In this document: in pieces, positions 2,590-21,884 of the stretch | Numbering within the stretch: the stretch's first letter is position 1 | Layout of the letters: each line of letters starts with the position of its first letter | Origin: a virus | DNA: 41,161 nucleotides | Reading direction: 5' to 3' (one strand) | IMG/VR virus record: IMGVR_UViG_3300005356_000011 | Span: 1-41,161 of that record | Notes under the pieces: model-generated | Told to the model about the DNA's origin: nothing | The model's database searches: none | Seen by the model: the letters and a program-made list of their open reading frames with translations, nothing else | Program-made: the position numbers and the translations under genes

Positions 2590-2961
2590 GTGATGATTCC
2601 GGGCAAGTATTCCCTGTTGCTCTACCGCGGCGACACCTGGCGCGTCGACTTCCTGCTTTGGGTAGATGCGGCCAAGACCGAGCCGGCTGATCTGACGGGA
2701 GTCACGGCCGCCGCTGAGATCCGCGACAAGTCCGCCGGCCTGAAAATCACGCCTATCACGTTGACGATCACGTTGCCGAACATGATCTCGGCGGTCCTGT
2801 CGCCGGCGGAAACCGCGCATCTGCCGATGTCGGGCGTCTGGGACTTGCAGCTGACGCGGGCCAATGGCGACATCCAGACGATCCTGGCCGGCCTGGTCAC
2901 GGTGACATCGGACGTCACGGCATCGATCCCGGTTCCGCGGGCCATGGTGAGGCAATCATGA
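2590..2961 (+). CDS. Tail/baseplate-associated Ig-like protein
   Basis: A 123-residue protein. GTG 2590 or the following ATG 2593 may be the start (SD AAAGGGG at 2580-2586, the more usual spacing favouring 2593). The pattern ([52 protein letters not shown], then VTSDVT) is that of a small beta-sandwich family commonly found just before collagen-like and fibre genes in siphophages. It probably links adhesins to the tail tip. The stop overlaps the next start by four bases (ATGA, 2958-2961), which suggests translational coupling. The family match is from memory; the adhesin-adaptor role is inference. Confidence 0.65.
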
Positions 2962-3719
2962 CAACCGTTATTGACACCATCGTCATCGAAGTCCTGACGC
3001 CGGACGAAGTGGAGTCTGTCGACGTGGTGGTGGGCACTACGGGACCAATGGGGCCGCCTGGTCCAGCGGGTCCACAAGGCGACGATGGAGCACCAGGCCC
3101 TGCTGGTCCAGCTTCGACGGTTCCGGGGCCCCAAGGCCCTCCTGGGCCGGCTGGCGCGGCTTCTACGGTGCCAGGTCCAGCAGGTCCGCCGGGTGCCACC
3201 GGGCCGCAGGGTCCACAGGGTCCACAGGGTCCGGCGGGGGGCACTGCCTACACCAATTCCGAAACGGAGCCGGCGACAAAGGTGCTGGGGGATCGCTGGT
3301 ACGTGCCTTCCACGGCGCGGCTTTACACGTACGTCAACGATGGCACCTCGAGCCAATGGGCGGAACTGCCTGGTGCTGCTCTCCAGTCCTATGACCTGGG
3401 TGGTGGTTGTACTGGCGCACCGACCGCATCGCTGGTGCTGATGCGCTACCCGTTCCCGCGTGCTGCGTCATTCCCGGCCGGGCTCACCAATAGCAAGGGC
3501 GTGGCGGCGACGGCAGCGACGGCCCAGACGGATTTCAACCTCCTCAAGAACGGTGTCTCCTTCGGCTCGATGCGATTCGCTGCGGCGGGCACCGTGGCGA
3601 CGTTCATTGCAGCTTCGGCGACATCGTTTGCCGTGGGCGACGTTTTGACGGTGACAGCGCCCGGAACGCCGGACGCTAGTTTGGCAAATATCGGCTTCAC
3701 CTTGGCTGGGACGAGGTGA
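2958..3719 (+). CDS. Collagen-like fibre protein
   Basis: A 253-residue protein. Residues 1-28 match the N-terminal short beta segment of phage collagen fibres ([18 protein letters not shown]). About residues 29-93 are Gly-X-Y triplets ([13 protein letters not shown]..., interrupted by ASTV), expected to form a collagen triple helix. The C-terminal 150 residues are a beta-like globular head ([18 protein letters not shown], then a segment ending GFTLAGTR). Such heads often bind ligands or trimerise the collagen. It is coupled to the upstream gene and followed at 3 bases by the discoidin-like gene. This is a structural fibre, probably surface-exposed. Confidence 0.8.
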
Positions 3720-7929: not shown

Positions 7930-8205
7930 GTGACGGAAATGAACTACGACTCCACCGAAGCGCCGAACGTTGATCTGATCGAATACGGTTTCGACGTAGG
8001 CCGCCTGATTCGTCTGCTGGGCGTCAAACGCGAAAACATACCGGCATTGCTCGAGGGCATGGACTTGCCCAGCCCGAGCCATTCGGCCTTGAATGCCTGG
8101 CTCAAGCGTGGATCCTGCTCCGGACAATGGGTCGCCATCCTCCTGCTGGCCCTCAGGATGCGCGGCGTCAAGGTCGACATCTACGATCTCATCCGGAAGC
8201 CGTGA
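7930..8205 (+). CDS. Small HTH-like protein, first gene of early operon
   Basis: A 91-residue protein from GTG 7930; ATG 7939 is an equally possible start and neither has a strong ribosome site. The middle contains DVGRLIRLLGVKRENIPALL, then HSALNAWLKRGSCSGQWVAI, a helix-turn-helix-like arrangement, and the end is RGVKVDIYDLIRKP. As first gene of the recombination operon it could be a Cro-like regulator. I do not recognise a defined family. It overlaps the next gene by GTGA (8202-8205). Confidence 0.6.
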   Translation: MTEMNYDSTEAPNVDLIEYGFDVGRLIRLLGVKRENIPALLEGMDLPSPSHSALNAWLKRGSCSGQWVAILLLALRMRGVKVDIYDLIRKP

Positions 8206-8726
8206 GCGTGGAAGCCCTCGAGATCATCGGTATCGATCCCGGGGCGGCGCCGACCGTCTGCCGGGCTTTCTTCGAGCTGGGCCGTCCTCCGGCGCTCGAT
8301 TTCTGGACCGAGCGCGAGACGTCTGATCTGCTCAAGGTGAACGGCAAGAATCGGCACGAATGCAGCGCGCCGCTGATGGCCGACATCTTCAGCCAGGTCC
8401 GGCCGGCGGCCGTCTTTCTCGAACAGGTGAGCGTGCGTCCCGGCGAAGGCGTCGTCTCGGCCTTCCGTTTCGGGAGGGCAATCGGCATCTGCGAATGTGC
8501 CTGCCTCGCCGCGGGATTCCGGCTGGAGCGCGTGCGACCGCAAGTCTGGCGCAAGGCGCTCAAAGTGCCCGAAGGCAAGGACGGTAGCCGGGCATTCGCG
8601 AGCGATCTCATGCCTCATCTGGCCTGCTGCTTCAACCTGGTCAAGGATCACAACAAGGCCGAAGCATTTTTGCTGGCCTGGTACGGCTTCCGCATCATCG
8701 CGGCGGAAAGGGGAATGCATGGCTGA
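8202..8726 (+). CDS. RuvC-like Holliday junction resolvase
   Basis: A 174-residue protein from GTG 8202, overlapping the upstream TGA by four bases; a longer ORF to 8127 lies inside the previous gene. RNase H-fold motifs are present: IIGIDPGAAP with Asp12, AAVFLEQVSV with Glu74, and VKDHNKAEAFLLAWYG with Asp149/His150 and Glu154. This is the order of the RuvC catalytic tetrad. Length is close to RuvC (about 170). It should resolve four-way junctions arising from phage recombination or before packaging. It is coupled to the YqaJ-like exonuclease, which fits a recombination operon. Confidence 0.85.
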   Translation: MSVEALEIIGIDPGAAPTVCRAFFELGRPPALDFWTERETSDLLKVNGKNRHECSAPLMADIFSQVRPAAVFLEQVSVRPGEGVVSAFRFGRAIGICECACLAAGFRLERVRPQVWRKALKVPEGKDGSRAFASDLMPHLACCFNLVKDHNKAEAFLLAWYGFRIIAAERGMHG

Positions 8727-9606
8727 TCGCACCGGATTCATCGGATCCACCGACGCGGCGCCGATCCTGGGTCTGTCGCCTTGGAAGACCGCGGTCGATG
8801 TCTTCATGGAAAAACGCAGCCAGGCGGAACGGGAGCACTTCGATCCCCAGCGAACCAAACTCCTGAACCGCGGCCGGCGCCTCGAGCCGGTGGTGCTGCA
8901 AATGCTGGCCGATGAAACCGGCATCGAAGCCGTGCGGCGGAACGTCCGTTATGTCGACAAGAGGCATCCCTTCCTGGCCGCCGAGATCGACGCGGAGACG
9001 GAAGACGAGCGAAACATCGAAGTCAAGACTGCCTCGATATTCAGGATGCAGGATTGGGGCGAAGTCGGCACCGATGCGCTGCCGGTTCATTACCTCTGCC
9101 AGGTGCAGCATCAAATGATGGTGACGGATCGGACGCTGACCATCGTGCCGGTGCTCTTTGGCGGCGATGACTTCAAGGTTTACGAAGTGCTCCGCGACGA
9201 CGAAATCATTGAAGAATTGCGCAAACTGGAAGTCGCCTTCTGGCAAGAGTACGTGCTGCCGGGCATCCCGCCGCCGCCGCGCACTGCCGGCGACATCCTG
9301 AAGCAATTCCCAAGGGACAGCGGCAAGGTGGTCCAGCTGCCGCGCGACTGCGCCGAGGCCTTCGATACCCTGCGCCGCGGCCGGCAAATGATCCGGCTGA
9401 TCGAGGAAGAAAACGAGGCGATCGAATTCCGGCTGAAGGCTCTGATGGCCGATGCGTCGATCCTCGAGTGGGAAGGCCGGCCGGTGATTACGTGGAAAGC
9501 GCAGACTTCAAAGCGGATTGATATCGAGCGGCTACGGGCAGAGTTTCCGGACATTGCGGCGCAATTGACGGTGAGTGTGCCGAGCCGGGTGTTCAGGATC
9601 AAGTAA
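8719..9606 (+). CDS. YqaJ-like phage recombination exonuclease
   Basis: A 295-residue protein from ATG 8719 (8-base overlap with the resolvase). Motifs of the YqaJ/lambda-exonuclease nuclease fold: FIGSTDAAPILGLSPWKT near the start, RGRRLEPVVLQML with Glu56, then AAEIDAET with Asp91 and IEVKTA with Glu101 and Lys103 (the E-x-K motif). It should resect double-strand ends 5' to 3' and supply single strands to the RecT annealase encoded at 11694. Exonuclease and annealase are normally adjacent; here two A+T-richer genes separate them. The N-terminal extension seen in the longer ORF (start 8497) is rejected because it overlaps the resolvase. Confidence 0.85.
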   Translation: MADRTGFIGSTDAAPILGLSPWKTAVDVFMEKRSQAEREHFDPQRTKLLNRGRRLEPVVLQMLADETGIEAVRRNVRYVDKRHPFLAAEIDAETEDERNIEVKTASIFRMQDWGEVGTDALPVHYLCQVQHQMMVTDRTLTIVPVLFGGDDFKVYEVLRDDEIIEELRKLEVAFWQEYVLPGIPPPPRTAGDILKQFPRDSGKVVQLPRDCAEAFDTLRRGRQMIRLIEEENEAIEFRLKALMADASILEWEGRPVITWKAQTSKRIDIERLRAEFPDIAAQLTVSVPSRVFRIK

Positions 9607-9608
9607 AA

Positions 9609-10391
9609 ATGACAATTCGAAAAACCGAACAAGGGCAAAGTGAATTGGCGACAGAAGCAAAGGAGCGCGGATTTTCCGCAGCCCTGGCGGTGAATTTCCG
9701 TGTTTTCCAGTCCATAACAAATGTGCCGCATGCCTCATATCAACACTTTGACTTGAACGCAGGCTGTGGAATAAATGACCAAGTTGGCGTTATTGGATCA
9801 CCATTAGTATTCCAGTATGAGTCAGCCCGTTGCGGCTTGCATAGATATGACGCATACTTCTGCGATCATTCACTCGACGCTGTAAATGGACTGAAAACCT
9901 GTCTTGCACCGGCCGATGGCGGTCGCATGCACGTCATCCATGGCGACAACGCACAATTTTGTGAACATATTCCAAGGCTGATCCGTGAAGCGGGGGAGCG
10001 CGAAAAATATGCGCTTGGATCTATTCTCGTAGATCCGAACGGCACATCGATACCGCTTGATGCAGTAGCGAAGGTCGCCCACCAATGCCCTCGCCTAGAC
10101 GTATTTATCGGGATTGCGGCAACGGCTCTGAAACGGGCGGCCGCCTATCAGGTTCCGAGCATTCGAGATATTGTGCATCAAATACCGAAACGGCATTGGC
10201 TGATTAGGACTCCAATCGGACCATGGCAGTGGACCATGCTACTTGGCCGAAACTTCGCAGTGGGAGAACACCGTGCGCTTGGTTTCTATGATCTGGATAG
10301 TGAATCCGGCCAAGAAATACTGGCACGATGTCATTTAACGGCGGCGGAATTTCAAGCCATGAACATGGCAAGGCAACATGCCTTATTTTAG
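9609..10391 (+). CDS. Rossmann-like protein resembling three-Cys-motif partner (TcmP)
   Basis: A 260-residue protein starting 3 bases after the exonuclease stop. It has methyltransferase-like features: FDLNAGCG (residues 47-54, glycine-rich loop), YFCDHS (83-88, acidic end of strand 2), IHGDNAQF (110-117), and ILVDPNG (139-145, motif IV-like). This layout matches TcmP proteins, which sit beside DUF5131/Gp37-Gp68 proteins carrying a three-Cys motif. That partner is indeed the next gene. The reaction is unknown; a nucleic-acid or SAM-dependent role is inference. The DNA is clearly more A+T-rich than the exonuclease and RecT genes, which suggests a recent insertion. The homology is divergent and judged by eye. 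Confidence 0.6.
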   Translation: MTIRKTEQGQSELATEAKERGFSAALAVNFRVFQSITNVPHASYQHFDLNAGCGINDQVGVIGSPLVFQYESARCGLHRYDAYFCDHSLDAVNGLKTCLAPADGGRMHVIHGDNAQFCEHIPRLIREAGEREKYALGSILVDPNGTSIPLDAVAKVAHQCPRLDVFIGIAATALKRAAAYQVPSIRDIVHQIPKRHWLIRTPIGPWQWTMLLGRNFAVGEHRALGFYDLDSESGQEILARCHLTAAEFQAMNMARQHALF

Positions 10392-10400
10392 GATTCCTTT

Positions 10401-11690
10401 ATGAATGCAAAGTTAGAGATATTGCCGGCTGAAAACTACAGCCAGGAATCTGCTGGGCAGTTGGCAGAGAGAGAGGGCAGGATCGAACGTGCCCAAAGGA
10501 ATGCCTATTATGAAATCGGCTTGGAGCTAAGGGCGATTCGGGAGGGATACCTTTACAAGATCACCCGTACAAGGCCGGTTGCAGGCCGCTACAGCTTTGA
10601 CACCTTTGAGGAATACGTCGAGGCGCGTTGGGATATGGAATACAGACGTGTTGTCCAATTGATCGACGCCGCTGGAGCCGCCCAAAACCTGAACAATTGT
10701 TCATCTTTTTTGCCGGCCCGCGAATCGCACGTCCGCCCACTGCTCAAGCTCACTAGCGACTCTGAACGCGCCGCGGCCTGGCAGGCAGTGGTTGGCAAGC
10801 ATGGCAGGGACATCACCGCCAAGGATGTCGAGGCCGAGGTCGAGTTGCTCATCGCCGCGAAGGCCAAGGACTGGATAACTTTGCCGGAGTGGGAGGAACT
10901 CGGCGACGACGAGCGGCGCGCGGCACTCCAAGTTAGCGGAGACAAGGTTTTCAACAAGCAGGACACCGACAGCATCGAATGGGCCCGCTGGTCATGGAAT
11001 CCGATCACGGGATGCCGCCATGACTGCCCTTACTGCTACGCGCGCGACATTGCCGGGCGCTTCTATCCGCAGGGCTTCGAGCCATCCATCTATCCGGCCC
11101 GGATGGCAACGCCTGGGCACATGGAAGTACCTGCGCGCGCCGAGCACGATATCAGCTATCGCAACGTCTTCACCTGCAGCATGGCCGACCTGTTCGGCCG
11201 TTGGGTGCCGGAGCAATGGATCGAGGCAGTGCTGGCCCAAGTACGTGCCGCGCCGCAATGGAACTTCCTCTTTCTGACAAAGTTTCCAAAGCGGATGGCC
11301 GAGTTTGATATCCCGCATAACGCATGGATGGGAACAACCGTAGATTTGCAGGCCAGGGTCAAAGCCGCAGAAGCGGCTTTTGCAAAGGTTGATTGCGCTG
11401 TCAAGTGGCTGTCTGTGGAGCCGATGTTGCAACCGTTGGAGTTCAGCCGATTGGAATTATTCAATTGGATCGTTATAGGCGGTGCCTCGCGCAGCAGTGA
11501 AACACCCGCATGGATTCCGCCGTTTGATTGGATTGCAAAATTGCACACTGCGGCGCGCGAGGCAGGCCTGAAGATTTATTACAAAGCCAATGCAGGAATG
11601 TCCGAGGATCTACGTATCAAGGAATTCCCATGGGAGCATGCAAAACAGAAAAGCCTACCAAAAGAGTTTATGTACTTGGGCAAGGAGTAG
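10401..11690 (+). CDS. DUF5131 (Gp37/Gp68) three-Cys protein fused to a helical N-terminal domain
   Basis: A 429-residue fusion. Residues 1-155 are helical (AQRNAYYEIGLELRAIREG, FDTFEEYVEARWDMEYRRVV, ITAKDVEAEVE), like N-terminal regulatory domains seen on phage methyltransferases and ParB-like proteins. Residues 190-425 match DUF5131: WSWNPITGCRHDCPYCYARD with Cys205, Cys209 and Cys212 (CX3CX2C, radical-SAM-like 4Fe-4S ligand set), FTCSMADLFGRWVP, FLFLTKFPKRM, VKWLSVEPML, WIVIGGAS. The family's substrate is unknown; a DNA or RNA base reaction is a guess. It pairs with the TcmP-like gene 9 bases upstream. The 3' part (11400-11690) is A+T-rich. Confidence 0.8.
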   Translation: MNAKLEILPAENYSQESAGQLAEREGRIERAQRNAYYEIGLELRAIREGYLYKITRTRPVAGRYSFDTFEEYVEARWDMEYRRVVQLIDAAGAAQNLNNCSSFLPARESHVRPLLKLTSDSERAAAWQAVVGKHGRDITAKDVEAEVELLIAAKAKDWITLPEWEELGDDERRAALQVSGDKVFNKQDTDSIEWARWSWNPITGCRHDCPYCYARDIAGRFYPQGFEPSIYPARMATPGHMEVPARAEHDISYRNVFTCSMADLFGRWVPEQWIEAVLAQVRAAPQWNFLFLTKFPKRMAEFDIPHNAWMGTTVDLQARVKAAEAAFAKVDCAVKWLSVEPMLQPLEFSRLELFNWIVIGGASRSSETPAWIPPFDWIAKLHTAAREAGLKIYYKANAGMSEDLRIKEFPWEHAKQKSLPKEFMYLGKE

Positions 11691-11693
11691 AAC

Positions 11694-12659
11694 ATGCCAG
11701 GCAACGAACAGCTACGAGAAACGATGCGCAACATGCAACCCCGCGGCCAGCAGGATCCACCGGGCGATCCGCCACCTGAGCCGCCGCCTTCAGAGCCGCC
11801 CAGCGAGCCCCCTAGCGAGCCGCCAGCGCCGCCGCCGCCATCCGAGCGGGCAGTGGGCAAGCCCGAGCCGAGGAAATCGGCTGGCGAGCTCGTGCGCGGG
11901 TTTGGTTCTTTCCTCGAGGCCCGGCAACAAAACCTGGCGCAGCTGTTGCCGAAGCACATGGACTCGAAACGGCTGATCCGGATCGCGGTGAATGAATTTG
12001 CGATGAACGACAAGCTGCGCCGGTGCACACCGCTGTCCATCTACGGCGCACTCTTGCAGTCGGCCGCAACCGGCCTGGAAATCGGGGTGGGCGGTCAGAG
12101 CTACCTGGTGCCCTACCGCACCAAGGGCGGCGAATTCCTCTGCAAGTGGATCCCGGGCTACCGCGGCCTGATCCTGCTGGCCCGGCGCACCGGTGAGATT
12201 GGCGATATCCGCACCGAAGTGGTCTACCGAGGTGATCGCTTCGAGGTGAGCAACGGCATGCCGCGGGGCTTTGTGCACATCCCGAACCTCGAGCCGCCGC
12301 GGGGCCCGATCTGGGTGTTCTATGGGGTGGCGGAGTACGTTGCCGGCGGCTACCACTTCGAGTACATGCTCAAGTCCGAGATCGACGCCTTCCGGGCGCA
12401 GTACAGCAAGGCCGGCGGGGATGACTCGCCCTGGCAAACCGCCTATACCGAAATGGCGCGCAAGACGGTGTTTCGCAGGATGGCCAAGTGGTTGCCCTCG
12501 AGCATCGAATTGCAGAATGCCCTGGCGCTGGACAACCTGGCGGCGCAGAACCGGCGCGCGGATGTGGTCGACGGGGTGGTGATCCCCACCGACCCGGCAC
12601 CGGAATCCGGCCGCGGCATGGACGATCCGTTCGGCGACGACATGACGATTGACTCCTAA
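11694..12659 (+). CDS. recT: RecT single-strand annealing protein with proline-rich N-terminus
   Basis: A 321-residue protein with a strong ribosome site (AAGGAG, 11682-11687). Residues 15-55 are a Pro/Glu repeat ([18 protein letters not shown]), probably disordered. The core matches Rec[53 protein letters not shown], then [15 protein letters not shown]. It should coat and anneal the single strands produced by the YqaJ-like exonuclease. The proline-rich arm is unusual for RecT. The C-terminus ([12 protein letters not shown]) is acidic, as in single-strand-binding-interacting tails. Confidence 0.9.
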
Positions 12660-12673
12660 CCTTGGAGGTTGAT

Positions 12674-14230
12674 ATGGGAGTTTTCCGTAAAAGTAGCGAC
12701 AAGCCGCCGGAGGCCGACACGGCAAGCGCCGAGGCCACAGAGCAAAAAGGTGGACAAGGCCAAGGCCCTGCTGGTCCTCCCGGTCCTCCGGGGCCACCTG
12801 GACCGCCCGGGCCACAGGGTGTCGCTGGCCCGCCTGGTCCTGCTGGATCGGGTACTGGTCCCGCTGGCCCTGTTGGACCGCCTGGCCCCGCTGGAGCCAA
12901 GGGCGCGACAGGCCCTGCTGGTCCTCCGGGCCCGCCTGGACCCCCGGGGCCGCAAGGTGTTGCCGGGCCACCTGGTGCGCCTGCGCCGGGCCCTTCGCCG
13001 GCTCCCATTCCTCCGTCGCCGACGCCTTCACCGACCCCGCCGTCGCCTTCGCCATCCCCGCCTCCTTCTGGTGGTACGGACAGTCCTAACTACCGCTATT
13101 TGCGCGCGGGTGGTGGTGGCGGGGATGGCAAGAGTTGGAGCACGGCATGGAATCAGTGGAGTCAGATCAGCGGTTTATCGGCGGGAATGACCGTTTTCAT
13201 TGCTGGTGGCAACTACGACTCCAGCGCCGCGCAAGCTGTGAATGGATCCTCAGGACAACCGGTTACGTACAAAGCCGCGACGAAGGCCAGCCACGGCAGC
13301 GCGACCGGCTGGCAAGACTCGTACGCCGTGGATGGCAGTGCAGGGCAAGCCGTGCTACGTGGTGGCTTCAACGTCGAATGGGGGCAGCGACGATCCTTCA
13401 TCACCCTGGATGGGCAGATTCGCGCGTCGTTGTCATCCGGCTACGGCTTTCATTGCGTGAAAGGCTACGCGGGCGACCGTGCGGCAGTTTTCGCTGGCGG
13501 GCAAGTCGATGATTTGACGATTCGCTATTGCGAGCTTGGCGACGAAACTCAGGAGGATTACTGCATCGACGGCATCCAGGGCAAGGGCCACCGGCTACTC
13601 GCGGAGTATTGCTTCATCCACGATTGCGACAACCGGGGCGACGCTCATGGCGACGGCGTGCAATGGTTCTTCGGTGACGGATGCACCTTCCGCTACAACC
13701 TGTTCCGCCACAACGGCCAGCACATCTATACCGGAGACACAGGTGCGCCGGGCGCGACGAATTTTGTTGTCGCCTTCAATCAATTCGACAATAAAGATTC
13801 TGGGTCGGGCGGAAGTGCTGGGTGGGCCATCAACGCCGGCGGTCCAACCGAATGGAACATCGACGTCCGTAATTGGCGGGTCTTCAACAACACCATCAGT
13901 TTCAGCGTCAACCTGTGGTATCCGATCTATCCCAATGCGCAGATGGTCAATCTGCTACTGAAAAACAACGCCTTCGTTGCGTGCGATTGCTACGTGGTGG
14001 CAGACACGACGCATAGCTACAACGGCTGGGATGATTCGTGCAAGGGTGTGCCGGAGGAGCCGGGCAAGGTGACTGGCAACCTCGGATTCAAGAACGAGGC
14101 CGGTTATGACTTCGCCCTGACGTCATCCTCGATCCTGCGCGGCAAGGCCACGGCGACCGACCTGGGCTACACCAAGGACATCGTTGGCAATCCGGTCGGC
14201 AATGACATCGGCGCATTCCAGTTTGTGTGA
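12674..14230 (+). CDS. Collagen/proline-rich beta-helix protein, copy 2
   Basis: A 518-residue protein. GGAGG at 12664-12668 fits ATG 12674; an upstream in-frame TTG overlaps the ribosome site and is rejected. Domains: charged N-terminus (1-34), collagen-like Gly-Pro-Pro repeats (about 35-103), a Pro/Ser hinge ([18 protein letters not shown], about 115-135), then a beta-helix of about 380 residues beginning [11 protein letters not shown]. The helix is a close paralogue of the protein at 4638-5939 (shared landmarks [36 protein letters not shown]). Its place after recT, among early genes, is odd for a virion adhesin. It may be a mobile fibre cassette or may act on the host surface. Confidence 0.75.
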
Positions 14231-14266: not shown

Positions 14267-15052
14267 ATGCTTGCTTTGATTATTCCTCTGGGTGGCGGGG
14301 ACTGGGGCGGGCTTCCGCATCCAAGCCATCCGATCATGTTGCCGGGCATGCCGGGCTGGGGTGGTGGTGGTGGCGGGCAAGGGCCCGTGGATCCCGGCTA
14401 CTCGCCGCCATGGGCGCAGGTTCCCCCAGGTGGGCAAGGTGGCGGCCCGGTTGACCCGGGCTACTCGCCTCCATGGGCCCAAGTGCCTGGCGGTGGTGGT
14501 GGTGGTGGCCGTCCTCCCGGCCAGCCGAGCCATCCGATCTACTTTCCGCCCTATCCGTCGCATCCGATCTGGCCGCGCCCGCCGTGGGAAGGTCCACCTG
14601 TCGCCGGCTGGCCAGGGATTCCGGGCTTCCCGAACTTCCCGAAGCCGCCACATCCTGGCGTGCCACCGACGCCGCCGGTCGACCCTGGCTACTCGCCACC
14701 CTGGGCGCAAGTTCCGGGCGGTGGGGGTGGGCCGGTCGATCCCGGCTATTCGCCGCCGTGGGCCCAGGTGCCAGGTGGCGGGCAAGGTGGCGGCCCTGTG
14801 GATCCGGGCTATTCCCCGCCCTGGGCGCAAGTGCCGCCGCCATCGCCGCCGAACTTGCCAGCTGGTGGTGGGGTGGTGATCCCGATTCCCGAGGATCCGC
14901 AGCGCCCGGTTCCGCCTCCGCCGGAAGGCACACCCGAGGACCACAAGCCCTACGTGATTTGGATGGGGCCGGGCACCGTGGCCAGCGTGGTCTATCTGCC
15001 GCCTGTAGCGACGACCAAGCCGCCCGTGCCGGGACAGACGCCGCCCGCTTGA
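14267..15052 (+). CDS. Pro/Gly-rich repeat protein with five PVDPGYSPPWAQVP units
   Basis: A 261-residue protein with an excellent ribosome site (AAAAAGGAG, 14252-14260). The N-terminus MLALIIPLGGGDWGG and HPSHPIMLPGMPGWGG resemble a low-complexity family widespread in uncultured tailed phages. Five copies of a 14-residue unit (PVDPGYSPPWAQVP) are linked by glycine-rich spacers, and HPI/HPS segments lie between units 2 and 3. The C-terminal 60 residues (after GGGVVIPIPEDPQ) look like a small ordered domain. The repeats differ at many third codon positions but not in protein, so they are selected. Role unknown; a fibrous or binding scaffold is plausible. It is followed by a terminator. Confidence 0.7.
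   Translation: MLALIIPLGGGDWGGLPHPSHPIMLPGMPGWGGGGGGQGPVDPGYSPPWAQVPPGGQGGGPVDPGYSPPWAQVPGGGGGGGRPPGQPSHPIYFPPYPSHPIWPRPPWEGPPVAGWPGIPGFPNFPKPPHPGVPPTPPVDPGYSPPWAQVPGGGGGPVDPGYSPPWAQVPGGGQGGGPVDPGYSPPWAQVPPPSPPNLPAGGGVVIPIPEDPQRPVPPPPEGTPEDHKPYVIWMGPGTVASVVYLPPVATTKPPVPGQTPPA
14383..14833 (+). repeat. Five in-frame repeats of a 42-base PVDPGYSPPWAQVP unit
   Basis: Units begin near 14383, 14449, 14677, 14734 and 14797 and each encodes the same 14 residues. Codons for Asp, Pro, Gly, Tyr, Ser and Val vary among copies, so the repeats are not recent DNA duplications. The spacing is irregular, with poly-Gly linkers between most units. Confidence 0.8.
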
Positions 15053-16277: not shown

Positions 16278-16316
16278 CGAATGCCAGAACTGGCCGCGGC
16301 GAGGCAACAGGAGCCT

Positions 16317-17090
16317 ATGAATGAGCTACATCTATTCGCGGGCGCTGGTGGAGGCATCCTCGCCGGGCAACTGCTCGGGCACCGGTGCATCTGCGCCGTC
16401 GAGTGCGAGCCCTACGCTCAGTCCGTGCTTGTGGTACGACAAAACGATGGATCCTTGCCGCCTTTCCCGATCTGGGATGACGTGCGCACCTTTGACGGAC
16501 GACCGTGGCGCGGCGCTGTTGACATCGTGGCTGGCGGGTTTCCATGCCAGGACATCAGCGAGTCCGGATTCAAGCAAGGGATCGACGGCGAACGGTCCGG
16601 CCTGTGGCGAGACATGGTGCGAATCATTGGCGAGGTTCGACCCCGCTACGTCTTCGTGGAGAACGTCGCAGCGTTGCTTCATCGAGGAATGGGCGTCGTT
16701 CTCGGAGGCCTGGCCAAGCTCGGGTTTGATGCGCAATGGACAGTGCTGGGTACGGCCAACATTGGGGGTGCGCAGCCGCGCGAACGAGTTTGGATCCTGG
16801 CCCACGCTCAAGGCATCGGATGGGGAGCAGTACAGCCGCAACCTCGCTTATTTCCAGCGGCGCCTAAAGATAGCGCCCGACTTGCCGGTGATCGTGGCGC
16901 TGAACACACCTCCAACGCCAGCCGGTTTCTATGGCCGGATCAATCCGGACTGGACCGAGTGGCTGACGGGATGGCCGATAGGGTGGAGCGCATTAGATGC
17001 ATTGGCAACGGCCAGGATCCGCGAGTGGCAGCAGCAGCATTCACCCTGCTCGCCGAAAGACTAGGGATCGAGCATGGCCAAGGATCGTGA
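16317..17090 (+). CDS. C5-cytosine DNA methyltransferase (short, overprinted)
   Basis: A 257-residue enzyme that methylates cytosine C5. Motifs in order: I, LHLFAGAGG (residues 4-12); IV, GGFPCQDIS with catalytic Cys77; VI, VFVENV (113-117, Glu115-Asn116-Val117); VIII, QPRERVWI (153-160); X, CIGNGQDPRVAAAAF (228-242). The gap between VIII and X is short, so the target-recognition domain is minimal. ATG 16317 lies only 3 bases after AGGAG (16309-16313). A second ATG at 16321 opens a 247-codon frame across almost the whole gene. The protein likely shields phage DNA from restriction. The last 17 bases overlap the HNH gene. Confidence 0.85.
   Translation: MNELHLFAGAGGGILAGQLLGHRCICAVECEPYAQSVLVVRQNDGSLPPFPIWDDVRTFDGRPWRGAVDIVAGGFPCQDISESGFKQGIDGERSGLWRDMVRIIGEVRPRYVFVENVAALLHRGMGVVLGGLAKLGFDAQWTVLGTANIGGAQPRERVWILAHAQGIGWGAVQPQPRLFPAAPKDSARLAGDRGAEHTSNASRFLWPDQSGLDRVADGMADRVERIRCIGNGQDPRVAAAAFTLLAERLGIEHGQGS
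16321..17064 (+). CDS. Overprinted +1-frame protein within the C5 methyltransferase gene
   Basis: A 247-residue ORF from ATG 16321, the second ATG in ATGAATGAG and spaced 7 bases from the shared AGGAG. It carries patterns that I remember from phage proteins near cytosine methyltransferases: SSWRTSQRCFIEEWASFSEA, WPSSGLMRNGQCW, GSWPTLKASDGEQYSRNL, and INPDWTEWLTGWPIGWSAL. Some of this (AGFHARTSA) is simply the shadow of motif IV. The WPT and EWL-GWPIGW parts do not coincide with methyltransferase motifs. Both frames end in sensible C-termini, which favours dual coding, but a high-GC shadow ORF is not excluded. No function known. Confidence 0.45.
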   Translation: MSYIYSRALVEASSPGNCSGTGASAPSSASPTLSPCLWYDKTMDPCRLSRSGMTCAPLTDDRGAALLTSWLAGFHARTSASPDSSKGSTANGPACGETWCESLARFDPATSSWRTSQRCFIEEWASFSEAWPSSGLMRNGQCWVRPTLGVRSRANEFGSWPTLKASDGEQYSRNLAYFQRRLKIAPDLPVIVALNTPPTPAGFYGRINPDWTEWLTGWPIGWSALDALATARIREWQQQHSPCSPKD

Positions 17091-19200: not shown

Positions 19201-20997
19201 ATGACTAACCGCATTGGTTATAGAGAACGTCAATGGGGCTTTGTGGTGCGTTCCTGCCTCTCGGCGCTCGATGCCTGTGGCGGTTCTCTCACGGCCTGGG
19301 ATATAGCTGTTGTCACTGGCCAATCGGTTCGGCTGGTGCGTGCTTATCTCGAGCAGCTGTATCAGGAGGGTGCCGTGTATCGGAGGGCTGATATGTGGCA
19401 CTTGTCTGAGGGATTGCAGAAACATCAAAACAATCAGCCAATGGTGAATCCTCCATCAGATAACGACATGCATAATGAGCAAGGCCCGAACGATGCAGCC
19501 AACATCGACGGGCCTCTGGCCAATCAAAGCAAAGGAGTTGCTTCTATGGTTGACGACAATTATGCGGCCTTCGTGCGTCGCAAATTCATCGCGCACAAGC
19601 CGACCGGCATCACCAACGGATTCACGCAGCCGGCTTCGATGTTCGGCCACCAGGCCGCCCTCGCATCATGGGCTCTGAAACGTGGCAGGGCCGCCATCTT
19701 TGCCGACACCGGGCTCGGCAAGACATTTATTGAACTGGTCTGGGCGGATGTCGTCCACAAGCACACTCGACAGCCAGTGATGATCCATACCCCGCTAGCT
19801 GTCGCGGCACAAATTGCGGCCGAAGGCGCCCGGTTCGGCATAGTGGCGACGGTTGTACGCGAGGCGAAAGACATTCAGCCTGGCATCAACATCGTCAACT
19901 ACGAGCGGCTTCACAAGTTCGATACTTCCATTTTCGGAGGGGTTGTCCTCGATGAGAGTGGATGCATCAAGCATCACGACGCGAAGACATTCCGACTGTT
20001 GATTGACGCCTATCGAGATACGCCATTCAAGCTGCCTGCCACAGCGACGCCTGCGCCTAATGATTGGGCGGAACTCGGCACGCATGCGGAGTTTCTTGGC
20101 ATCTGTTCTCGAGTCGAGATGCTGGCGGAATTCTTCACGCACGATGGTGGCGATACGAGCGTCTGGCGATTAAAGGGCCACGCCCGCGCACCATTCTGGA
20201 AGTGGGTTGCCAGTTGGGGAGCGCTCATTCGCAAGCCATCCGATCTTGGGTTCGATGACGGTGCATATAACCTCCCGCCGCTCAATTTGCACGATCACAT
20301 TGTCGAGATAGATCGTCCCTTGAACGGCGCGTTGTTTGATACAGAAGCACAAACCCTGATGGAGCGACGGGCCGCGCGACGGGAGTCATTGGATGAACGT
20401 GTGGAGGCGTGCTCCAATTTGATTTTCAAGGAGTGGCAAGCCGGCCCTGCTGCGGTTAATGGCGGACATCTTGAGCCGTGGGTCATCTGGTGCGAACTCA
20501 ATTCAGAGCATGACGCACTGGAGCGTGTATTCGGTAGCTGCGCATTCTCCATTCGAGGCGCTGACAGCACCGAGGAAAAGGAAGACAGGTTGATGCGATG
20601 GCTCGCTGGAGAACGCCCCGTCATCATCAGCAAGGCATCGATCCTGGGGTTCGGTTTGAACATGCAACGAGCGGCCAGGATTGCGTTCGTCGGCGTCACC
20701 GATTCATTCGAGAGCTACTACCAGGCCGTGCGTCGATGCTGGCGTTTCGGGCAGAAGCGCCCAGTCGATGTCCACCTTTTCAGCAGTTCGCAGGAGGGTG
20801 CCATTGCCGCCAATCTGAAGCGCAAAGAAGCTGCCGCCCACCAGATGGCAGAGATCCTCAGCGCCGAGACGCATGGTGCCGTGTTCGCTGAAGTTATCGG
20901 TGAGGCCACGCGACAAACCAATACCTATGACGCATTCAAGCGCGTCGCCACCCCTTCATTCCTGGAGCCTGCATGCCATGCATCAATCAAGTCGTGA
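19201..20997 (+). CDS. SNF2-like superfamily 2 helicase with N-terminal winged-helix-like domain
   Basis: A 598-residue protein. Residues 10-72 (LDACGGSLTAWDIAVVTGQS, LVRAYLEQLYQEGAVYRRAD) look like a winged helix, followed by a polar linker (73-118). SF2 motifs: I, ADTGLGKT (168-175); II, VVLDESG (248-254, DESG instead of DEAH); III, ATATPAPN (280-287); VI, YYQAVRRCWRFGQKRPV (506-522). It should translocate on duplex DNA. The linker contains another plausible start (ATG 19546), so the N-terminal domain could be optional. It overlaps the next gene, a DNA methyltransferase, by 25 bases. Helicase-methyltransferase pairs of this kind occur in many siphophages. Confidence 0.85.
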   Translation: MTNRIGYRERQWGFVVRSCLSALDACGGSLTAWDIAVVTGQSVRLVRAYLEQLYQEGAVYRRADMWHLSEGLQKHQNNQPMVNPPSDNDMHNEQGPNDAANIDGPLANQSKGVASMVDDNYAAFVRRKFIAHKPTGITNGFTQPASMFGHQAALASWALKRGRAAIFADTGLGKTFIELVWADVVHKHTRQPVMIHTPLAVAAQIAAEGARFGIVATVVREAKDIQPGINIVNYERLHKFDTSIFGGVVLDESGCIKHHDAKTFRLLIDAYRDTPFKLPATATPAPNDWAELGTHAEFLGICSRVEMLAEFFTHDGGDTSVWRLKGHARAPFWKWVASWGALIRKPSDLGFDDGAYNLPPLNLHDHIVEIDRPLNGALFDTEAQTLMERRAARRESLDERVEACSNLIFKEWQAGPAAVNGGHLEPWVIWCELNSEHDALERVFGSCAFSIRGADSTEEKEDRLMRWLAGERPVIISKASILGFGLNMQRAARIAFVGVTDSFESYYQAVRRCWRFGQKRPVDVHLFSSSQEGAIAANLKRKEAAAHQMAEILSAETHGAVFAEVIGEATRQTNTYDAFKRVATPSFLEPACHASIKS

Positions 20998-21884
20998 CCG
21001 ATACCTACACTGCCATTCATGGCGACTGCATCGAGGCGCTGCGCGATCTGCCGGATGAGTGCATCGGCTACAGCATCTTCAGCCCGCCATTCGCATCCCT
21101 GTACACCTACTCCAACAGCCCACGCGACATGGGCAACTGCAAGAACGACGCGGAGTTCTTCGAGCACTTCCAGTACCTCGTGAAGGAGTTGCTGCGTGTC
21201 CTCAAGCCGGGCCGCGATGTCTCATTCCATTGCATGCTGATGCCCAGCAGCAAGGAACGTGATGGCTACATCGGCCTGCGCGACTTCCGTGGCGATCTGA
21301 TTCGTGCGTTCCAGGCTGAGGGGTTCATCTATCACTCCGAGGTCTGCATCTGGAAGGATCCAGTCACATCGATGCAGCGCACCAAAGCACTCGGCCTACT
21401 GCACAAGACCGTGCGAGGCAACTCAGCCATGGCCAGACAGGGCATCCCCGACTACCTCGTGACCATGCGCAAGCCTGGCGAATGCGAGCGCGTCACGCAT
21501 GGCGAGGAGTACCCGGTGGATCTGTGGCAGAAGATCGCTAGCCCAGTCTGGATGGACATCAACCCATCCGACACATTGCAATATCGATCCGCACGCGACC
21601 ATGACGACGAGCGCCACATTGCGCCGCTTCAGCTTGAAGTGATCCGTCGAGGGGTCCAGCTTTGGACGAACCCCGGCGACATCGTGTTGAGCCCATTCAT
21701 GGGGATCGGCAGCGAGGGCTATGTGTCCCTGCAACTCGGCCGCAAGTTCGTTGGCGTCGAGCTCAAGGAGTCCTACTTTGGGCAGGCCTCGCGCAATCTT
21801 GCAGCTGCCATTGCACAGAAGCCGAACGCTGATCTGTTCGCAGAGCCCGCAGCCGAGGAAGGCATGGCTGATCCCATGCAATAG
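20973..21884 (+). CDS. Beta-class DNA methyltransferase (N4-cytosine or N6-adenine)
   Basis: A 303-residue enzyme. Motif IV is SPPF (residues 37-40) after YSIF, and motif I comes later as GDIVLSPFMGIGSEGYV (235-251), with motif X HIAPLQLEVIRR (215-226) before it; that order defines the beta class. SPPF rather than DPPY suggests N4-cytosine, though N6-adenine is possible. VGVELKESYF (260-269) follows motif I, as expected. The paired SNF2-like helicase may recruit it or couple modification to replication. No restriction nuclease is adjacent. This is the second DNA methyltransferase in the genome. Confidence 0.85.
   Translation: MPCINQVVTDTYTAIHGDCIEALRDLPDECIGYSIFSPPFASLYTYSNSPRDMGNCKNDAEFFEHFQYLVKELLRVLKPGRDVSFHCMLMPSSKERDGYIGLRDFRGDLIRAFQAEGFIYHSEVCIWKDPVTSMQRTKALGLLHKTVRGNSAMARQGIPDYLVTMRKPGECERVTHGEEYPVDLWQKIASPVWMDINPSDTLQYRSARDHDDERHIAPLQLEVIRRGVQLWTNPGDIVLSPFMGIGSEGYVSLQLGRKFVGVELKESYFGQASRNLAAAIAQKPNADLFAEPAAEEGMADPMQ

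Follow-up and report, generated by a model that had tools for sequence, protein, structure and literature searches.

A TcmP-like protein with a predicted RlmJ-type fold and a DUF5131 protein with a predicted DNA-binding extension form a recurrent gene pair in a phage recombination operon

Results

The window analysed here is a virus record of 41,161 bases (IMGVR_UViG_3300005356_000011) with the genes of a tailed phage (terminase, prohead protease, capsid, portal and tape measure), the terminase being 46% identical to those of HK97-type phages. An operon in its early region encodes, in this order, a Holliday-junction-resolvase-like protein (8127-8726; match to phrog_1770), a YqaJ/lambda-type exonuclease (8719..9606, + strand; PF09588, E=3.8e-26), a TcmP-like, SAM-dependent methyltransferase-type protein of 260 aa with a predicted RlmJ-type fold (9609..10391, +; assigned from TIGR04474, an AlphaFold model and PDB matches), a DUF5131 protein of 429 aa with a predicted N-terminal DNA-binding domain (10401..11690, +; assigned from PF07505 and AlphaFold) and a RecT annealing protein (11694..12659, +; PF03837, E=4.4e-37). 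The exonuclease gene probably starts at 8719, as read from the sequence (MADRTGFIGSTDAAPILG...), the start at 8497 in the list of open reading frames (ORFs) being over-extended. Gaps of 2 bp, 9 bp and 3 bp separate YqaJ from the TcmP-like gene, the TcmP-like gene from the DUF5131 gene, and the DUF5131 gene from RecT, respectively. The two genes of the pair are real, intact and tightly packed in one operon, with the reading frames, the FDLNAGCG and LVDPNG motifs of the first product and the CX3CX2C motif of the second that a preliminary description of this DNA had assigned to them.

That description had also placed the pair between an exonuclease gene and a RecT gene that are otherwise neighbours. 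Profile matches bear this out: in relatives that have no such pair, YqaJ lies next to RecT, with gaps of 5 bp (L175), 1 bp (L179) and 2 bp (L138), so that "inserted between" is a fair wording. The A+T-richness claimed for both genes holds for the TcmP-like gene, which has a GC content of 50.3% (2.4% of same-size windows are equally low) and a GC3 of 46% against 66-82% in its neighbours, but not for the DUF5131 gene, which at 55.9% GC is unexceptional (18.5% of windows are equally low); the former is compositionally foreign and the latter is not. Given the position of the pair between exonuclease and RecT, early lytic expression is expected. A search of IMG/VR for RecT relatives found none, and neither tRNA genes nor Rfam RNAs were found in the window.

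Several other genes of the window deserve mention. A C-5 cytosine DNA methyltransferase (PF00145) is encoded at 16281-17090, with relatives downstream of the pair in 6/70 loci, and an N6/N4 DNA methyltransferase (PF01555) at 20973-21884; with these, the phage has three methyltransferase-type genes. The RecT N-terminal stretch is proline-rich and partly encoded by a 12-base repeat near 11793-11828. Collagen-like GPP repeats occur in the ORFs at 2958-3719 and 12662-14230. The second of these immediately follows RecT and weakly matches a beta-helix, and the early operon may therefore include a virion-type gene. The ORF at 14267-15052 is made up of some seven repeats of PVDPGYSPPWAQVP, separated by Gly-rich spacers, and contains a 57-base tandem repeat at 14674-14836.

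The DUF5131 domain, predicted to form a radical-SAM-type barrel, spans residues 191-400 (10971..11600, +), and a profile search confirmed its identity (PF07505, E=1e-39; 137 bits against a Pfam cut-off of 28.9). Its CX3CX2C motif, CRHDCPYC (residues 205-212; 11013..11036, +), would provide the ligands of a putative 4Fe-4S cluster. The three Cys and an aromatic residue before the third are invariant in 58/58 DUF5131 sequences, as are SMxD, LTK, SxEP and Gly360, and Cys259, just before SMxD, is Cys in 44/58, Gly in 10 and Val in 3. The radical SAM superfamily motif CX3CX(aromatic)C is thus present in the window protein; the Radical_SAM model itself, PF04055, remained below its cut-off (18.9 vs 29.5 bits), with a match limited to the stretch around the Cys motif. 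In Foldseek searches with the AlphaFold model of the 429-aa protein (pLDDT 92.8), the domain matched best the spore photoproduct lyase (SPL) structure 4fhf, in which the enzyme is bound to a DNA lesion dinucleoside (a weak E=8.8e-3 with probability 1.00), followed by RlmN (E=2.8e-2, also weak). SPL also shares with DUF5131 the CX3CX2C motif and a similar [LI]SxEP stretch. However, the SPL family model that we used, PF20903, had no match in the window record, hhalign of the domain against clostridial SPL gave a short, weak alignment (probability 19%; one SPL sequence was N-terminally truncated), and SPL/SplB-like proteins differ from the window protein, in which DUF5131 is extended by a predicted DNA-binding domain and has a methyltransferase-type protein as its partner.

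Residues 1-175 (10401..10925, +) form a helical domain that Foldseek relates to the Noc/ParB-type helix-turn-helix (HTH), the DNA-binding domain of Noc (6y93) being matched with probability 1.00, a target TM of 0.74 and E=0.17. Among 84 extended DUF5131 proteins, a ParB_N-type domain is present in 53 and the Noc HTH of the window type in 18, with profile matches of the extensions to ParB/Noc structures reaching E values of about 1e-9; ParB_N was sought in the window protein and is absent from it. At least two unrelated modules of DNA-binding type are thus joined to the DUF5131 core, and this exchange of the DNA-binding domain around a constant catalytic core is a sign of DNA targeting. By these sequence and fold comparisons the extension is a predicted DNA-binding module, which, unlike in ParB and Noc themselves, is attached here to an enzyme of the radical-SAM type. 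The preliminary description had regarded this domain as one otherwise seen on DNA methyltransferases. Its reading of the fusion as pointing to DNA stands, but the predicted fold is closest to that of a Noc/ParB HTH, most sister proteins have a ParB domain instead, and the plasmid relatives of the domain are mostly unannotated cyanobacterial ORFs, with one lying within an annotated Dcm. This Dcm-type methyltransferase (L168:1924-3861, Gloeothece verrucosa plasmid) has a domain 33% identical to the window HTH; the unannotated ORFs with the window-type domain occur on many cyanobacterial plasmids.

The TcmP-like protein is predicted with high confidence to be a Rossmann methyltransferase whose nearest solved structure is RlmJ, the 23S rRNA m6A2030 methyltransferase (PF04378). 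TIGR04474 (TcmP) matched it with E=5e-9 and 36.4 bits, under the curated cut-off of 53 bits; Pfam assigned no family to it, PF04378 included. The best 14 PDB structure matches of the AlphaFold model, built from 41 sequences (pLDDT 92.5), were all RlmJ/DUF519 proteins or a Legionella homologue (best E=1.7e-8), and a TM of about 0.5 to the RlmJ structures indicates the same fold and not a close copy. A sequence profile of the family likewise ranked RlmJ first (E=0.013), and in the reverse direction TIGR04474 matched E. coli RlmJ with E=0.0012, the sole NCBIfam match of that protein. Because BLASTP of the TcmP-like protein against its Streptomyces counterparts and RlmJ was not significant, the homology rests on profiles and fold. 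Searches of IMG/VR, of GTDB genomes and of phage and plasmid sequences by degenerate patterns and tblastn found no close homologues, and PDB sequence searches with the single window proteins returned nothing useful; relatives were reached only via the alignment of the DUF5131 partner.

When aligned by hhalign, motif I, GSPL and motif IV of the TcmP-like protein and RlmJ follow in the same order. Motif I, DLNAGCG (residues 48-54; 9750..9770, +), lies in conserved columns and corresponds to DTHAGAG of RlmJ (DxxAGxG in both), and the GSPL motif (residues 63-66; 9795..9806, +) is common to the two proteins, with position 64, Ser in the window, being Ser or Thr in 40/41 TcmP-like relatives; between these motifs the TcmP-like protein has a short stretch that could not accommodate the segment of about 50 residues found there in RlmJ. 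In RlmJ, Ser100 of GSPL contacts the amino-acid moiety of SAM (PMC3814359). Motif IV is DPNG (residues 142-145; 10032..10043, +), with Asp142 invariant (41/41) and Pro143 nearly so (39/41), whereas RlmJ has DPPY. Lys18 in the first helix (codon 9660..9662, +) is invariant in 41/41 relatives and may be the equivalent of the catalytic Lys18 of RlmJ, a correspondence that we keep as a candidate because the automatic alignment is off by one residue. Lys18 and Asp164 of RlmJ are essential for m6A formation, in a site that resembles those of DNA m6A methyltransferases; the enzyme acts on RNA and is inactive on single-stranded DNA (PMC3814359). Since motif IV is DPNG and not DPPY, ordinary m6A activity of the TcmP-like protein is doubtful, and this protein may transfer a different group or act on a different target. 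RlmJ is also a single-gene housekeeping RNA enzyme, unlike the paired TcmP-like protein.

The recurrence of the pair was assessed in loci chosen solely for their similarity to DUF5131, without the use of TcmP. An alignment-based search found DUF5131 relatives in 381 IMG/VR stretches, with further ones in GTDB genomes, and we examined 80 viral loci and 80 loci from genomes, together with the loci collected beforehand, by comparing all ORFs with the window TcmP-like protein. A one-round single-sequence search found TcmP-like proteins in 55 loci; with an iterated profile, a TcmP-like gene was found directly upstream and on the same strand in 66/77 non-redundant loci with an extended DUF5131 and in 0/45 loci with a short one (Fisher p=3e-23, a value that overstates independence because the loci are partly related to each other). 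Gene order and orientation are kept in 58/62 non-redundant extended viral loci, and the independent NCBI model TIGR04474 matches 28/41 of the TcmP-like partners. The co-occurrence is far above chance. Both the similarity of the 260-residue protein to TcmP and Rossmann methyltransferases and the occurrence of the two genes together elsewhere, as the preliminary description had proposed, were detected. Family distances of the two proteins are correlated (Mantel r=0.50, 0/2000 permutations), which supports linked descent, although the correlation may mirror phage lineage only. Clustering of the neighbourhoods found no recurrent third gene (maximum 7/70 loci), and the module is therefore treated as two genes. 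Short DUF5131 genes without TcmP also follow genes for DNA cytosine or adenine methyltransferases, on a Nocardia plasmid (L006:1999-4927) and in Dulem virus 34 (L007:2068-4795).

Many phages, plasmids and bacteria have genes annotated as TcmP or DUF5131. Canonical TcmP–DUF5131 pairs (TIGR04474 and PF07505) were found on Mycolicibacterium and Streptomyces plasmids and in Gordonia phages, with the two genes convergent or divergent. They resemble the window type in that homologous partners adjoin each other in phages, prophages and plasmids, with an invariant CX3CX2C motif and Asp-Pro at motif IV. Canonical TcmP is, however, about 370 aa long and its DUF5131 partner short and bare at about 250 aa (251 and 261 aa in two pairs), whereas in the window type a TcmP of about 260 aa lies upstream and co-directional, and the DUF5131 protein of about 430-500 aa bears an N-terminal ParB or HTH domain. 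A C-terminal GMT-wHTH was found in canonical TcmP of a Gordonia phage (E=3e-9) and of Mycolicibacterium (E=0.003, below cut-off), and in 0/41 window-type TcmPs; from these two canonical proteins, the comparison points to a single DNA-binding domain in every pair, whichever partner bears it.

Canonical TcmP–DUF5131 pairs correspond to the PADLOC defence candidates PDC-M30/M41. Canonical TcmP matches PDC-M30A (E=3e-51) and the window DUF5131 protein matches PDC-M41B (E=3e-37) and PDC-M30B (E=6e-35), while no PADLOC model matched the window TcmP-like protein. In the Gordonia phage ThankyouJordi (genes 41-43; L172:3248-5826), the immunity repressor is followed after 3 bp by canonical TcmP, which is convergent with DUF5131 and close to the integrase; the prophage probably expresses the pair. 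Literature searches for DUF5131, Gp37Gp68, TcmP and PDC-M30/M41 returned passing mentions only, with neither a reaction nor an experimental anti-phage test. The term "undescribed" in the preliminary description consequently fits part of the module: both families and the canonical pair are known, but the DNA-binding-fused, co-directional architecture and the link to RlmJ were not found in the literature searched.

Discussion

We favour, with confidence evenly balanced between its being right and wrong, the explanation that the pair is a SAM-dependent, two-protein DNA base-modification module of the phage early operon, the product of which shields phage DNA. The N-terminal Noc/ParB-type HTH would bring the DUF5131 protein, with its radical-SAM-type and SPL-related active site, to DNA, and the TcmP-like partner with its RlmJ-type fold would share the target base or DNA site with it, for example by transferring a methyl or SAM-derived group to an exocyclic amine, either ahead of the radical step or following it. 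The modified base would then protect phage DNA from host nucleases. DNA as the substrate, one joint product, the order of the steps and the protective role are what we infer. This explanation is suggested by the recurrence of TcmP directly upstream of extended DUF5131, by the apparent DNA-binding fusions on DUF5131 or, in canonical TcmP, the wHTH, and by the predicted structures, in which TcmP has an RlmJ-like fold and the nearest radical SAM enzyme to DUF5131 is one bound to a DNA dinucleoside. The presence of m5C and N6/N4 DNA methyltransferases in the same phage and the position of the pair between exonuclease and RecT suggest it as well. The RNA substrate of RlmJ, the DPNG motif, the weak similarity to SPL and the sub-cut-off Radical_SAM score count against it. 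More tentatively, and as a distinctly less probable proposition, the modification may be a hypermodification by new chemistry, in which a radical SAM enzyme that binds DNA and a group-transfer enzyme derived from RlmJ would together make, in two steps and at recognised sites, a base such as a carbon-modified or N-extended adenine, and so protect phage DNA.

The strongest rival to DNA self-modification is a phage- or prophage-borne defence, such as superinfection exclusion, in which the pair would modify or damage the incoming DNA of a competitor, or else a host target; we consider it unlikely for the window. The matches to PDC-M30/M41 models speak for it, and defence fits the ThankyouJordi pair better than lytic self-modification does because that pair adjoins the immunity repressor. 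Also in its favour, though as a correlation only, 32 P. aeruginosa strains were predicted to have PDC-M30, and 68.8% of these were phage-resistant (PMC10855318). PADLOC candidates are, however, association-based, and another candidate, PDC-M63, was inactive when tested (PMC12409345). The window pair itself lies in a recombination operon with no repressor adjoining, its TcmP-like protein matches no PADLOC model, and neither protein showed a nuclease or other killing domain. An improbable explanation is DNA repair, with a DNA-targeted SPL relative reversing or processing base lesions during phage recombination and the RlmJ-like protein serving as a SAM-binding partner. It would account for 4fhf as the best PDB match, the shared [LI]SxEP stretch and the operon with exonuclease and RecT, and Cys259 might be a hydrogen donor like Cys141 of SPL (PMC5368176). 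That correspondence is only putative, though, and Cys259 is variable; moreover, PF20903 is not matched, known SPLs need no conserved methyltransferase partner, and fusions to sequence-specific DNA-binding domains are more in keeping with modification than with the repair of lesions.

With an rRNA methyltransferase as the nearest solved relative of the TcmP-like protein and RlmN as the second-best enzyme match of DUF5131, the pair could instead modify host or phage rRNA, tRNA or mRNA, as RlmJ and RlmN do, but the HTH fusions of the partner, whether ParB, Noc-type or other, are predicted DNA-binding modules and the neighbouring genes encode DNA enzymes, and we consider an RNA target decidedly improbable. 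Very improbable is that the pair is passenger cargo, independently mobile, newly arrived in the operon and unrelated in function to the phage. Although the low GC3 of the TcmP-like gene and the adjacency of YqaJ and RecT in relatives would agree with this, the GC content of the DUF5131 gene is ordinary, order and orientation are conserved among the extended viral loci, and the active-site columns are invariant.

Altogether, the recognition of TcmP as an RlmJ relative provides a candidate active site (Lys18, Ser64 and Asp142), and the ParB/HTH fusions provide a candidate substrate class, DNA. If a new base is made, radical chemistry would join the DNA-modification repertoire of phages, and if the pair serves in defence, PDC-M30/M41 would gain a candidate mechanism. 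Should hypermodification by new chemistry prove true, it would give a function to DUF5131 and TcmP, two widespread families without an assigned reaction.
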